Shown here: positions 23,138-63,826 of the stretch, piece by piece
Layout: every line of letters begins with the position of its first letter
Numbering within the stretch: position 1 is the first letter of the stretch
Origin: an uncultured Flavobacteriaceae bacterium
Lineage (GTDB): Bacteria > Bacteroidota > Bacteroidia > Flavobacteriales > Flavobacteriaceae
Direction of reading: 5' to 3'
Assembly: GCA_943789365.1 (NCBI GenBank)
Contig: CALSTV010000001.1
Coordinates: forward strand, 310,001 to 374,000
Length of the DNA stretch: 64,000 nt
Program-made: the position numbers and the translations under genes
The notes under the pieces: model-generated
Databases searched by the model: none
The model's input: only the letters and a program-made list of their open reading frames with translations
Told to the model about the DNA's origin: nothing

Positions 23138-26100
23138 CTAGTACTTCTTAATAAATTCGAGGATTGACGACGTATTCATATCCATAATTTTCACAAAATA
23201 CAGCCCTTCAGCAAGGTTTGAGACATCAATTCTTTGTCCCGTATAGGCTTCGTTGCGGAGCATCATTGCGCCAAGACTGTTATATACCTCAATTGTCATG
23301 GGCTGCTGGTTTTCTCCTCCTACAACGGTAAAACCAGTGGTTGCCGGATTTGGAATCACTTGGTAGTCCAACAAATTATCGAACGCTACATTATTGGTTA
23401 GCGTTCCGCATATATCTGTTGTATCAGGACCTCCATCCTCCATAAAATTCCAAGAGAATTCATTTATAAGTGTTACTTTTGCTTCTGCTCCCTCATCACA
23501 ATATTTACTATTTCCACCATGAAAGCTAACCCCTGTTGGTATATCGTCAACGCCCATTACATTGGGATAAGAGTCCGTAGCCCATCCTGCTAACAAACTG
23601 TTATAATGCTCAGTGGATAGCGTTACACCAAAGAACATATCATACATATTATTCTCTACATTTCCAATATCCCAACCGCTTAAATCTTCATCAAAGGAAC
23701 TTGCATTTCGAAATACAGAATTCATATTCTCAATGCTAGAAACATCCCATTCCCCCAAGCTTGCGGCATTGTCATTATTACCTACATTGCTACAATCTCT
23801 AAACATATGATTCATATTTGTAACCGAAGCAAGGTTAGGTTGGTCTGTAGCGAATATTCTTAGGTTCGAGCATCCATAAAAAGCTTGATGCATAGACTCC
23901 CAAGCAATATCCCCCCATTGGTCTACAGAAAGTAACTTGTCTTTACTGTGACTGTTATTATTCATCTTAATATCTGGAAAAACACCATAGATATGTACGG
24001 TATGCGAACCTGCATCGGAATAGGTATGCGTTAGAATTTTAAAACCAAAATCGTCGATCGCCGCATAACCTATTTTCGTACCATCTCCCCAGTCTACCAT
24101 GAAATCGTAAACATCTTCTCTTCCATGCATCATTATATTCACCTCTTCATCCGTACTGCTCGTTTGCCAAGTTGATATAAAAGGTGCTCCTGTAGTACAA
24201 TTTATATCCCTACCACCATCTGTAAAACGCCATTCGAAATCATTTATAAGTGTCGTTCTTGCGGAGTTGTTACAATATTCACTCCCCCCCCCTTCTAAAT
24301 GAATACCGATTGGTACATCATCGACTCCATCACCCTCACCGCTACTAGTATCTGTAGCCCAGCCCTCTAGCGTACTTTCATAATTGCTACTTGAGAGCCC
24401 TCCAGCACCTTCAAACATATCGCTCATATCATCAATGCTACTAAGATCCCATGCTCCGATGTTCTGGTCAAAAGTCTCAGCTCCATAGAATATCCCTGCA
24501 AGAAGAACAACTTTAGAAGTATTCCAGCCACCTATAGCTTTATTGAACTGAGTTGCTCCAGAAAACATAGACTCCATATCGATAACATTTGCTGTATTCC
24601 AACCGCCAATAGCTTGATTAAAAGACGTAGCTCCATAAAACATAGAGTTCATAATAATAACCTTAGAAGTATCCCAGGCGCCTATAGCTTTATTGAACTG
24701 AGTTGCTACAGCAAACATAGACTCCATATTGGTAACATTTGCTGTATTCCAACCGCCAATAGCTTGATTAAAAGACGTAGCTCCATAAAACATAGAGTTC
24801 ATATTGGTCACATTTGCTGTATTCCAACCGCCAATAGCTTGATTAAAAGACGTAGCTTCATAAAACATAGACTTCATATTGGTCACATTTGCTGTATTCC
24901 AACCGCCAATAGCTTGATTAAAAGACGTAGCTCTAGCAAACATATAGCTCATATTGGTGACATTTTCTAGGTTTGGTTGGTCTGTAGCTGTTAACTCCGT
25001 AAGCCCCGTGCAGCCATAAAACGCACGCTCCATACTAGACCATGCCCTGGTACCCCATTGGTTTATGTCTACTATTTTTGTTCTATCGCCACCATGGTTA
25101 AAATAGATTCTAGGAAAGTCACCTGTTATCGTCACTGTATATGTATTAGCACTTGTATAGATATGTGTTGCGTCTTCTGTATGCCCCATAGAAGCAGTTC
25201 CATCTCCCCAGTCTACGGTATAATTATACGTATTGCCTGATTTAGTAGGTATGGTAATTGCAGTAGCATCACCCTCTACAGTCCAAGTAGTAATAAAGGC
25301 TTCGGTACATAGTTCAGTACCAATGTTTGGAAAACTCCAACTGAGATTCTCAAGTGTATCTTTGGCATCTGCTCCAATGCAGTAATTTCCTTGAGCATCG
25401 ATAGTAATACCGCTCGGTACATCATCAACTTCATCATCCTGACTGTCACTAGTATCGGTAGCCCAACCTATCAACAAACTGTCATAATTTACTATAGAAA
25501 GTGTTACTCCATAAAGCATATTGCTAGCAGTTACCAACTCTGAAAGGTCCCAACCGCCAATAGCTTGATCAAAAGCACTAGCTCCGTTAAACATATCATC
25601 CATCTCCAATGCTTTTGACGTAGACCAATTGCTTATATCCATATTAAAAGAAGAAGCATCCTTAAACATTTTATAAAATGTTATTACATTACTGGTAACC
25701 CAAGTACCAATAGCTCCATTAAAATTCGTACAACCTTCAAAAACAGATTGCATAGAGCTTATAGAAGAAACGTTCCAATCGTTTAAATCGAGATCTATTG
25801 GATTCGGTGATTGGTCTATAGGATGTAAACTTTCACAATTTTGAAACATAGCGTCTAAACTTGTTACTCCTGTCAAAATAGGAGCATCATTGGCCCAAAG
25901 CATCAAATTTTCACAGCCATAAAAGGCCCTTTTCATACTACTCCATGCTATATCCCCCCATTGCAAAATGGATGTTAATTTTTCTTTGTTACCATCATTC
26001 ACATTGTTAAAATAGATTCTAGGAAAATCACCTGATATTTTAACAGAAACTTCTAATCTATCTCTCCCTCCTAAGTCATAAGTATGTGTTATACTTCCTG

Positions 26101-26469: not shown

Positions 26470-27927
26470 TTATTTAGCTTGAAAAAAATTATCAATAAGT
26501 GTGTTTAGCTCAGTCGAAACCTTTAATTTCCAGACAAGCACACCGTAGAAAATTACAAGGAACGCACTCTTTATGAGCATGGTTAGTAGTGGATGAAATG
26601 GAAAGCTCCATGCCATAAACAACAAGTAACAACCAAGTATAATTAGGCATAATGTTTTGGTTGTCTTGGTAAAAGGAAATATATGGAACCTAAGTTTTAC
26701 ATAGAACAGTTTAAGGGTATTAAAAACAAACACTACGATTAACGTAGACAATGCTGCTCCATTGATACTCATGACATCAATCAAATAATCATTCAATACA
26801 TATACAGAAACCGCCATTGCAATTCCATAAGGCAATAATACTTTATAGTGTTTTGAATTGGAGATAATGGCACCGTTGGCACCCAAAAACATATGATACA
26901 GCTTTGCTGAAGAAATGGCTAAAACGACCCATATTCCACCGCTGTATTTCTCCGGTAAGAGTTCATAGATCTGTTCAATGTTTAGGTTTATCAGCAAAAA
27001 CACGAGCCCGGAAACCAAAAACAAGTTAATAGAACTCTGTTTGTATAACTTCTGAACCTCCTCCATTTGGTTTGTATTCAGTGCTTTTGCCACCAGGGGC
27101 TGAACAATTTGAGCCATGGCCCTACCGGGTGTTTCAACAACAGAACCTATATAAACAGCAACCGCATAATAGGCCGTATTGGCTATGGCCTCTTTTTGTG
27201 GTATCATAAACTTATCGATGTCTATTAAAATGGTTCCAGCAGCACCCGCCAATAGTATATACAGCGAATATTTGAGTATTTCTCCAATGTTTTTAGGTAG
27301 TTCCCATGTAAATGCAGGTCTATACAATGCTAATGCATAGAGACACATAACGGCTGTTCTGACAAAATAGGCTCCTGTTAGGTAGTAAACAAATTCGGGT
27401 ATGGAAATCCATTTAAAATAAACAGCCAACAACAAACAAGTAGCAGCCACTCTAGAAAACAGCTCTTTTAACATATTTCCAAATACAGACTGCATTTGCA
27501 CTTTTGCCCAGGCATAAAAAATTTCAAAGTAAGCGGTAGCAATGGCTACCAAATAAATAACAAAGGTATATTCCTTTATGATTGGATTTTTTAAGGACAA
27601 ATAATTCGAAATTTGCTCGTAAAACATATTCCCCAAAAAACCGATGGGAACTGCAACGAGTAAGGGCAATAAAATTGCGGTACTTAGAAAGGCATCTTTT
27701 TCTTTTTTGGTCTCATAGGACGAAAAGAATTTTAATATGGTGTATTGTACCCCAAAAGCTGTTAATGGCATTAAAATATTAGCTGTGGACAATAAATAGG
27801 TCACCAGTCCGTAGTAGGTATCCTCTATGAAGGCCGTGTATAAAAACAAAGCGTTCACCCCTCCTATCGCAAACGCTATATAGATGGTGATGGTGTTTTT
27901 TAAACTTTGCTTAAATACAATTCCCAT
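26470..27927 (-). CDS. Polysaccharide flippase/exporter of the MOP (Wzx) superfamily
   Basis: A 485-residue inner-membrane protein with about 12-14 hydrophobic helices, for example TIYIAFAIGGVNALFLYTAF at the N-terminus and LCLIILGCYLLFMAWSF near the C-terminus. The order and short charged loops fit oligosaccharide flippases that move lipid-linked repeat units across the membrane. It is the last gene of the minus-strand cluster with WecB and two glycosyltransferases, separated from wecB by a 127-base gap that holds an octamer repeat. The exact substrate is unknown. Confidence 0.88.
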   Translation of the reverse strand: MGIVFKQSLKNTITIYIAFAIGGVNALFLYTAFIEDTYYGLVTYLLSTANILMPLTAFGVQYTILKFFSSYETKKEKDAFLSTAILLPLLVAVPIGFLGNMFYEQISNYLSLKNPIIKEYTFVIYLVAIATAYFEIFYAWAKVQMQSVFGNMLKELFSRVAATCLLLAVYFKWISIPEFVYYLTGAYFVRTAVMCLYALALYRPAFTWELPKNIGEILKYSLYILLAGAAGTILIDIDKFMIPQKEAIANTAYYAVAVYIGSVVETPGRAMAQIVQPLVAKALNTNQMEEVQKLYKQSSINLFLVSGLVFLLINLNIEQIYELLPEKYSGGIWVVLAISSAKLYHMFLGANGAIISNSKHYKVLLPYGIAMAVSVYVLNDYLIDVMSINGAALSTLIVVFVFNTLKLFYVKLRFHIFPFTKTTKTLCLIILGCYLLFMAWSFPFHPLLTMLIKSAFLVIFYGVLVWKLKVSTELNTLIDNFFQAK

Positions 27928-27929
27928 TT

Positions 27930-27990
27930 TTTGGTTTTTTGGTTTTCTGGTTTTCTGGTTTTTTGGTTTTTTGGTTTTCTGGTTTTTGGT
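27930..27990. repeat. Octamer tandem repeat (GGTTTTCT/GGTTTTTT)
   Basis: About seven degenerate 8-bp units of GGTTTTCT or GGTTTTTT start directly before the flippase start codon (CAT at 27925-27927) and occupy half of the gap to wecB. On the coding strand this is an A/C-rich leader, placed where the ribosome-binding site should be. Confidence 0.9.
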
Positions 27991-34091: not shown

Positions 34092-34176
34092 ATGTTCGTT
34101 GTCCGTTGTCCGTTGTTCTTTTTTGGCTTTCGGCTTTCGGCTTTTGGCTTTTGGCTTTTGGCTTTTGGCTTTTTGA
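34092..34176. repeat. Heptamer tandem repeat
   Basis: GTTCGTT/GTCCGTT units (from 34094) are followed by GGCTTTC and GGCTTTT units to about 34175, all with a 7-bp period. They fill the 164-base gap between recN and the YfhO-type gene. No terminator or promoter was recognised in that gap. Confidence 0.92.
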
Positions 34177-42460: not shown

Positions 42461-42564
42461 TGGTTGGTGACTTTTGGCTTTTGGCTTTCGGCTTTCGGCA
42501 TTTGACTATCGGCTATCAGCTAACGGTTAACGGTTATCGGTTATCGGTTATCGGTTATCGGTTT
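42461..42564. repeat. Long degenerate heptamer tandem repeat
   Basis: About fourteen 7-bp units that change gradually along the array: GGCTTTT, GGCTTTC, GGCATTT, GACTATC, GGCTATC, AGCTAAC, GGTTAAC, then four or five GGTTATC. It lies between the prmA promoter and the tpiA terminator. Confidence 0.95.
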
Positions 42565-45268: not shown

Positions 45269-45339
45269 TTGACACTGACTCTGACGCTGGCTTTTGACTT
45301 TTGAGCTTCGACTCTTGACTTTTAACTTATGACTTTTGT
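45269..45339. repeat. Degenerate heptamer repeat
   Basis: Loose 7-bp units TGACTTT, TGAGCTT, CGACTCT, TGACTTT, TAACTTA and TGACTTT, in the divergent region between the permease and uvrA. Weaker than the other arrays, but in the same 7-bp phase. Confidence 0.75.
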
Positions 45340-62901: not shown

Positions 62902-62931
62902 TTGTCATGTAAAAATATGGTTTTATATTTG
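62902..62931 (+). promoter_or_regulatory. Promoter of tRNA-Lys
   Basis: TTG (62902-62904), 19-base spacer, TATATTTG (62924-62931): both boxes and the spacing match the Bacteroidetes vegetative promoter. The tRNA begins 26 bases downstream. This is one of the two full two-box matches in the window. Confidence 0.85.
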
Positions 62932-62956: not shown

Positions 62957-63029
62957 GACCTGGTAGCTCAGTTGGTAGAGCATCTCCCTTTTAAGGAGAG
63001 GGTCCTGGGTTCGAGCCCCAGCCCGGTCA
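62957..63029 (+). tRNA. tRNA-Lys (UUU)
   Basis: 73 bases that fold as a tRNA with anticodon TTT at 62990-62992 (loop CTTTTAA). D-arm AGCTCAGTTGGTAGAGC and T-arm CTGGG-TTCGAGC-CCCAG are canonical, and the discriminator is A73 (63029), with no CCA encoded. Acceptor pairs are G-C, A-T, C-G, C-G, then T5 opposite C68 (a mismatch), G-C, G-C. The last 8 bases of the gene (CCCGGTCA) are the start of the 144-bp array behind it. Confidence 0.95.
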
Positions 63030-63530
63030 CAGAATTAGAAAGACTAAGCGTATGCTTAGTCTTTTTTTTGTAAAACATTCTGGGGCGAGAAACCAGGACT
63101 CATATTTATTAGAAATACGAACCTGCCCTGAGCTGCTGCACGGTAGTGAAGCATGGTCGAAGGGGCCCGGTCACAGAATTAGAAAGACTAAGCGTATGCT
63201 TAGTCTTTTTTTTGTAAAACATTCTGGGGCGAGAAACCAGGACTCATATTTATTAGAAATACGAACCTGCCCTGAGCTGCTGCACGGTAGTGAAGCATGG
63301 TCGAAGGGGCCCGGTCACAGAATTAGAAAGACTAAGCGTATGCTTAGTCTTTTTTTTGTAAAACATTCTGGGGCGAGAAACCAGGACTCATTTTTATTAG
63401 AAATACGAACCTGCCCTGAGCTGCTGCACGGTAGTGAAGCATGGTCGAAGGGGCCCGGTCACAGAATTAGAAAGACTAAGTGTATTGCTTAGTCTTTTTT
63501 TTTGTAAAACATTCTGGGGCAAGAAGCCCC
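63022..63530 (+). repeat. 144-bp tandem array of tRNA-Lys 3' end, terminator and REP-like segment
   Basis: Units begin at 63022, 63166, 63310 and 63454, an exact 144-base period; the fourth is partial (to about 63530). Each starts with CCCGGTCA, the end of tRNA-Lys. Then comes a terminator hairpin AGACTAAGC/GCTTAGTCT with a T run (63041-63069, 63185-63213, 63329-63357), a GTAAAACATTCTGGGGCGAG segment, and a GC-rich imperfect palindrome (CCCTGAGC... GGTCGAAGGGG) resembling REP-type elements. Units 1 and 2 look identical; unit 3 differs at one base in CATATTTATT/CATTTTTATT. The fourth hairpin is altered (AGACTAAGTGTATTGCTTAGTCT region). Since 144 is a multiple of three, an open frame runs through it (63052-63492), which I treat as spurious. 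Confidence 0.93.
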
Positions 63531-63540
63531 CCAGACTGCA

Positions 63541-63610
63541 CCAGACCGCAAGACCCCAAGACCGCAACCGCACCGCAAGACCGCAAGACCGCAAGACCGC
63601 AAGACCGCAA
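63541..63610. repeat. Octamer tandem repeat (AGACCGCA)
   Basis: About eight 8-bp units, five of them perfect AGACCGCA near the end, directly after the partial fourth unit of the 144-bp array. It is GC-rich, unlike the surrounding DNA. From 63611 to 63742 I see only AT-rich sequence and the promoter of tRNA-Leu. Confidence 0.92.
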
Positions 63611-63742: not shown

Positions 63743-63826
63743 GCACACATGGCGGAATTGGTAGACGCGCGGGCTTGAGGGGCTCGTGTCCGAAAGGACG
63801 TGGAAGTTCGAGTCTTCTTGTGTGCA
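63743..63826 (+). tRNA. tRNA-Leu (GAG)
   Basis: 84 bases with a long variable arm (TGTCCGAAAGGACG), as in leucine tRNAs. Acceptor stem GCACACA/TGTGTGC (7 bp) and discriminator A. Anticodon stem CGGGC/GCTCG with anticodon GAG at 63777-63779. T-loop TTCGAGT. No CCA encoded. Confidence 0.93.

Follow-up and report, generated by a model that had tools for sequence, protein, structure and literature searches.

Tandem copies of the tRNA-Lys tail in a Flavobacteriaceae genome, related arrays behind other tRNA genes, and sister arrays that encode small GIY-YIG proteins

Why is a tRNA gene followed by repeated copies of its own last nucleotides, each with a terminator, and does the host need them? We asked this of the tRNA-Lys (TTT) gene of an uncultured Flavobacteriaceae bacterium. 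The window, that is, the whole stretch of DNA analyzed here, comprises 64,000 nucleotides (C1:310001-374000 of a 3.73-Mb genome in three contigs), and the features of the array and its surroundings all lie on its plus strand. ARAGORN and Rfam placed tRNA-Lys at 62957..63029, with its end at 63029/63030, and tRNA-Leu (GAG), its ancestral neighbor, lies at 63743..63826.

TRF on the window reported one tandem array at 63021-63525, with a period of 144, 3.5 copies, and 98% matches, in agreement with a first-pass annotation that had described a 144-bp array starting with the last 8 (or 9) nucleotides of tRNA-Lys. Unit 1 (63021..63164; TRF and sequence comparison) starts inside the tRNA with GCCCGGTCA, and GCCCGGTCA(C), found in every unit, is the final 9 nt of tRNA-Lys. 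By sequence comparison, unit 2 (63165..63308) is identical to unit 1, unit 3 (63309..63452) has one base different (TTTTT), a variant also present in the distal unit of the array behind the other tRNA-Lys gene (L060), and unit 4 (63453..~63534) is partial and diverged; the near identity noted in the annotation is thus real and limited to units 1-3. The order within a unit is tRNA tail, terminator hairpin, CTGGGGC-GAGAAA, spacer, and CCCTGAGC...GGTCGAAGGG. A terminator hairpin in each unit had been claimed, and folding revealed it in all four (z -6.1 and -5.4): a 13-bp stem with a T-run at 63037..63069 in unit 1 and again at 63181, 63325, and 63469, of which a simple terminator scan caught the fourth only. 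It is followed by what we call a fossil left arm (63080..63092; again at 63224, 63368, and 63514), consisting of CTGGGGC, the reverse complement of tRNA-Lys positions 59-65, and GAGAAA, a hexamer of the GAGAAG type. The REP-like palindrome CCCTGAGC...GGTCGAAGGG, attributed by the annotation to every unit, occurs at 63126..63164 and again at 63270 and 63414, three occurrences in the array against 0 in 100 shuffles. It is missing from unit 4, which ends in CTGGGGC-AAGAAG-CCCCCCAG and whose terminator is the variant AAGTGTATTGCTTAG of the L060 locus.

The motif TAnnTTTG, which we take to be the Bacteroidota-type promoter motif, precedes both tRNA-Lys (as TATATTTG, 62924..62931) and tRNA-Leu; a motif search of the array did not find it in any unit. 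The earlier picture of a tRNA followed by four terminators in series is right in layout, but because the units lack this motif, only the first is normally in a position to end the tRNA transcript. The array matched no Rfam family, whether at the gathering threshold or at E <= 10, and did not match the RtT RNA family, presumably the Rfam name under which E. coli tyrT-type repeats are to be expected. When folded as RNA, the segment 63080-63175 was no stabler than its shuffles (z -0.87), and we therefore do not propose that the window derivative gives rise to a structured small RNA.

The fossil left arm is best understood from the ancestral unit, which consists of a tail (T-loop position 59 to the 3' end), a trailer with a terminator, a hairpin insert, and then the next tail. 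The insert is built as (reverse complement of the T-arm 3' half)-GAGAAG-(CCTGAGC...GTCGAAGG). In the Leu, Asp, Thr, Asn, Ile, and Lys units, the tail copy starts at T-loop position 59, preceded by (reverse complement of 59-65)-GAGAAG-(TTTA or CCTG)TCCTGAGC...GTCGAAGG(G)A; the insert occupies the T-loop's place in the copied T-arm. The inverted T-arm half, GAGAAG, and the restart at 59 occur together in L060 and in the Asn, Leu, Asp, and Thr units. At L060, the array has a period of 183 bp and its units carry 17 nt of the tRNA, AGCCCCAGCCCGGTCAC. The window units keep the left arm and GAGAAA/AAGAAG and have lost the T-stem 3' strand: the 7-bp AGCCCCA of GAAGGG-AGCCCCA-GCCCGGTC (L060) is missing from GAAGGGGCCCGGTC (window). 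This alignment marks the window array as an apparent deletion derivative of the 183-bp type, with its left arm kept as a fossil. The annotation had held that so short a tRNA part fits attachment-site duplication poorly; the 8-9 nt are correct for this array, but they are not original, since the L060 sister has 17 nt, and in a deletion derivative such short homology is no argument against a loop-targeted origin.

To what extent the left arm follows its own tRNA was assessed by a shuffle test over 35 cases. It matched the complement of that tRNA, read from position 59, at 197 of 280 positions, against 138 +/- 7.6 when shuffled; the shuffles do not correct for kinship among the loci. Since the T-stem is itself an inverted repeat, we also considered the left arm as a direct copy of the T-stem 5' strand plus CGAG. 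We rejected this reading because position 59 is complementary in 34 of the 35 cases, including tRNAs with A or C there.

Such arrays are common in this genome. We listed all 49 of its tRNAs and read their 3' flanks, defining an array as a tandem repeat with a period of 40 or more. Nineteen tRNAs are followed by an array, and the final 9 nt of the tRNA recur in the flanks of 15 tRNAs; the tmRNA likewise has an array, which begins at its very 3' end. The 17 distinct arrays lie behind Lys, Asn, Asp, Leu, Met, Arg, Val, Ser, and Pro tRNAs and the tmRNA, compared with a background of one array in twenty random 20-kb stretches (400 kb) of the same genome; no array was present behind the 32 tRNAs checked in a complete genome from another genus of the family. 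The CCTGAGC...GTCGAAGG element has 11 loci in the genome, 9 of which have a tRNA at most 250 bp upstream (P about 2e-21), and a search with the window unit itself gave matches only behind tRNAs, at the tRNA-Lys and tRNA-Asn loci. A second class of array lies behind tRNA-Val (L074, L091), tRNA-Arg (L073), tRNA-Ser (L082), and tRNA-Pro (L085), where a long inverted copy of the tRNA tail and terminator precedes the tandem repeat. In all four rRNA operons (L064, L068, L088, L089), the hairpin insert and a second tRNA-Ile tail are found between tRNA-Ile and tRNA-Ala. At L061 (4593-7560), two genes that look sulfatase-like by eye lie between two tRNA-Asn genes, each of which has its own unit or units.

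The link to tRNAs extends through the family. The 19-nt core that forms the left part of the CCTGAGC...GTCGAAGG insert was present in 49 of 199 family genomes, and a reversed control pattern had no match in the same 199. With one locus taken per genome, the insert was located 16-460 bp 3' of a tRNA at 27 of 30 loci, representing ten isotypes; it is almost absent from ordinary intergenic DNA.

We then compared units within and between arrays. In most arrays the tRNA-proximal copies are identical and the far end is diverged, as in the window array, L060, L069, L084, L103, and L101; L102, L061, and L097 are exceptions. The two tRNA-Lys loci lie 250 kb apart and have exchanged units, since unit 4 of the window array has the L060 terminator and the last L060 unit is window-like (85% like the window unit). 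In a same-genus relative, the distance from tRNA-Lys to tRNA-Leu (GAG) is 39 bp, with one terminator, compared with 713 bp here; the window array is therefore young and dispensable.

Sister arrays in the same genome encode a predicted nuclease. In two arrays that follow tRNA-Met genes (units of 387 and 344 bp) and in the one that follows the tmRNA (472 bp), the units encode a GIY-YIG protein (Pfam PF01541, 50-71 bits), of 85 aa in the tRNA-Met type and 84 aa in the tmRNA type, in which no extra DNA-binding domain was detected; in the 344-bp set (L101, six copies), the ORFs are broken by stops. The catalytic-type residues Y8, Y19, R29, H33, and E66 are invariant. A GIY-YIG ORF is absent from the window array and from all arrays with the GAGAAG insert. 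Relatives of the tRNA-Met type lie behind tRNA-Met, Val, Asn, or Arg; in the named genomes, nearly all of those in Bacteroidota, Cloacimonadota, and Marinimicrobia have a tRNA or tail directly upstream, and the Firmicutes relatives have none. Among 13 loci with tmRNA-type relatives, 8 (seven genera) are behind a tmRNA and 2 behind tRNA-Val or tRNA-Ser. Sister arrays and relatives share one arrangement: they lie directly 3' of a tRNA or tmRNA, and the ORF is usually followed by a partial copy of the tRNA. In that copy a palindrome (e.g., TCCGCC...GGCGGA) replaces part of the anticodon arm, and a second terminator comes after it. The interruption is mostly in the anticodon arm in GIY-YIG units and in the T-loop in the GAGAAG type. 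One relative array (L115) contains units both with and without the ORF, and at L110 and L112 the proximal terminator is unlike the distal one, as it would be after an insertion. At L234-L246, a non-coding palindrome, GGGCTTCGGTGGA..TCCA, is conserved before the tmRNA-type ORF, also behind tRNA-Val. Interrupted tRNA copies and GIY-YIG ORFs were also seen 5' of functional tRNA-Asp or tRNA-Arg (L139, L146, L149), so tails are not the sole place for such ORFs.

The T-even phage enzyme SegB, which is of the GIY-YIG type, cleaves within tRNA genes at RAWTSGAAC and, by way of recombination, drives the amplification of tRNA loci in tandem (PMC13096335). In reverse complement, this site appears to fit the T-loop consensus GTTCRANTC, a reading of ours and not of the cited paper. 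SegB-type free-standing homing endonucleases and the present system have in common the fold family, the linkage to tRNAs, and tandem amplification (PMC13096335), and on our reading the cut motif of SegB corresponds to the T-loop; SegB belongs to a phage and concerns whole tRNA genes, whereas here we are dealing with a bacterial chromosome, tRNA tails, and predicted nucleases of 84-85 aa. By analogy with SegB, we infer that a GIY-YIG nuclease would cut tRNA genes in a loop, either that of the T-arm or that of the anticodon arm. If the break were repaired from a neighboring tail copy by unequal recombination, units could be added beside the tRNA, and the hairpin would protect the copies from cleavage and leave the real tRNA intact. 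The ORF-less 144-bp units would be non-autonomous members of such a selfish set. We give a probability of about one half to this reading, in which the window array arose by local amplification of the tRNA-Lys tail, trailer, terminator, and hairpin insert within a selfish set driven by a GIY-YIG enzyme. Several points count against it: arrays with the GAGAAG insert have no GIY-YIG ORF, and the enzyme is tied to that insert solely through their common genome, site, and layout; the two types of unit are interrupted in different arms; and the L101 copies are broken by stops.

The closest known likeness lies at tyrT of E. coli K-12, where TRF gave 178 bp x 3.1 and the units start 18 nt inside tRNA-Tyr. 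The repeats read GGGGAAGGAT-GAGAAG...AATCCTTCCCCCACCACCA, the left arm GGGGAAGGAT being the reverse complement of ATCCTTCCCC. The tyrT/tyrV (rttR/tpr) locus therefore has the same tandem units from the tRNA 3' end, arm, GAGAAG, and restart at 59; it differs in being a single locus, in its encoded CCA, and in its middle sequence. To our knowledge, these repeats have hitherto been without explanation, and we know of no GIY-YIG gene there. Repeats of the same anatomy with no known nuclease nearby count against the nuclease model.

They also fit a neutral amplification driven by the palindromes, in which the extended T-arm hairpin makes replication stall or forms a cruciform, and the arrays are built and homogenized, without any nuclease, by slippage or by unequal crossing-over between tail copies. 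Every class-A unit indeed has an inverted-repeat arm and a palindrome, and in one relative whole tRNA-Lys genes stand in simple tandem with 138-bp spacing. We regard this as possible but doubtful, as it accounts neither for the confinement of the insert to the tails of ten tRNA isotypes nor for the fact that tRNA/tmRNA-linked GIY-YIG genes have this arrangement too. It is improbable that the tails are attachment-site copies accreted from small elements crossing over by a tyrosine recombinase. Integrases classically cross over in the T-loop or anticodon loop of tRNA genes, the interruptions fall in these loops, integrative elements likewise copy the tRNA 3' part, and the differing terminators of L110 and L112 are as such insertion would leave them. 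However, no unit contains an integrase, GIY-YIG being the sole protein found; the left arm, which is the tail in inverted complement with a constant GAGAAG added, is not a direct attachment-site half; and, unlike integrative elements, the units measure 84-472 bp and are tandem and homogeneous.

Still less credence is due to a Y1 transposase (RAYT) putting the palindrome into tRNA-tail hairpins and so seeding arrays. A short palindrome beside a constant 5' tag recalls REP/BIME anatomy, and the genome has one Y1_Tnp gene (C1:616183), but this gene is flanked by other palindromes (CTCGGATT..AATCCGAG) and not by the CCTGAGC...GTCGAAGG element, which is tRNA-tail specific, present in few copies, and scarce in ordinary intergenic places. 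With Y1_Tnp present yet unlinked to the element, we rejected a RAYT origin. The annotation had suggested a recently expanded accretion array of a REP-type unit, and among its proposals this fits best, the units being tRNA-linked; the REP transposase connection is what falls away. Its other two ideas, serial terminators that insulate a strong tRNA promoter and a trailer-derived small RNA such as has reportedly been proposed for E. coli rttR, are weakened because just one terminator follows this tRNA-Lys in relatives from the same genus and the same family, and because the units lack a promoter motif. Each unit does keep a good intrinsic terminator; nonetheless, a complete genome of the family does without arrays behind the tRNAs checked, and we consider a host function very unlikely. 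A selfish or non-functional array is more likely than an insulator, and no host function is needed. Copy number from short-read assemblies is unreliable, but the 3.69-Mb main contig resolves arrays as long as 2.2 kb in which the distal variants can be told apart, which makes an assembly artefact a negligible concern.

These observations turn a single odd array into a rule, with the same hairpin, hexamer, and T-loop position in many genera of a Bacteroidota family and at E. coli tyrT, and they name a candidate enzyme, the tRNA/tmRNA-linked small GIY-YIG proteins. They also point to tRNA tails as possible chromosomal homes of very small selfish elements. A literature search, which covered few subscription journals, found no published account of tRNA-tail arrays with GIY-YIG or of the palindrome, nor anything of use on the tyrT repeats. 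Quite tentatively, and with the odds against us, we suggest a class of minimal selfish elements confined to tRNA/tmRNA tails, of ~340-470 bp with GIY-YIG and ~84-190 bp without, each bringing a replacement tRNA 3' part and terminator and a loop hairpin that would guard against its own nuclease; E. coli tyrT might then be an orphaned member.

Other repeats were seen in the window. Directly after the array, at 63543-63610, the octamer AGACCGCA is repeated about eight times; tRNA-Asp of the same genome also ends in CCAGACCGC. TRF reported further short repeats, with period 7 at 1195-1256, 34121-34173, 42471-42563, and 45291-45338 and with period 8 at 27927-27987, and such 7/8-bp tandem repeats are possibly a general trait of the genome. 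A degenerate 75/150-bp tandem repeat at 24509-24965 (TRF) is probably coding.
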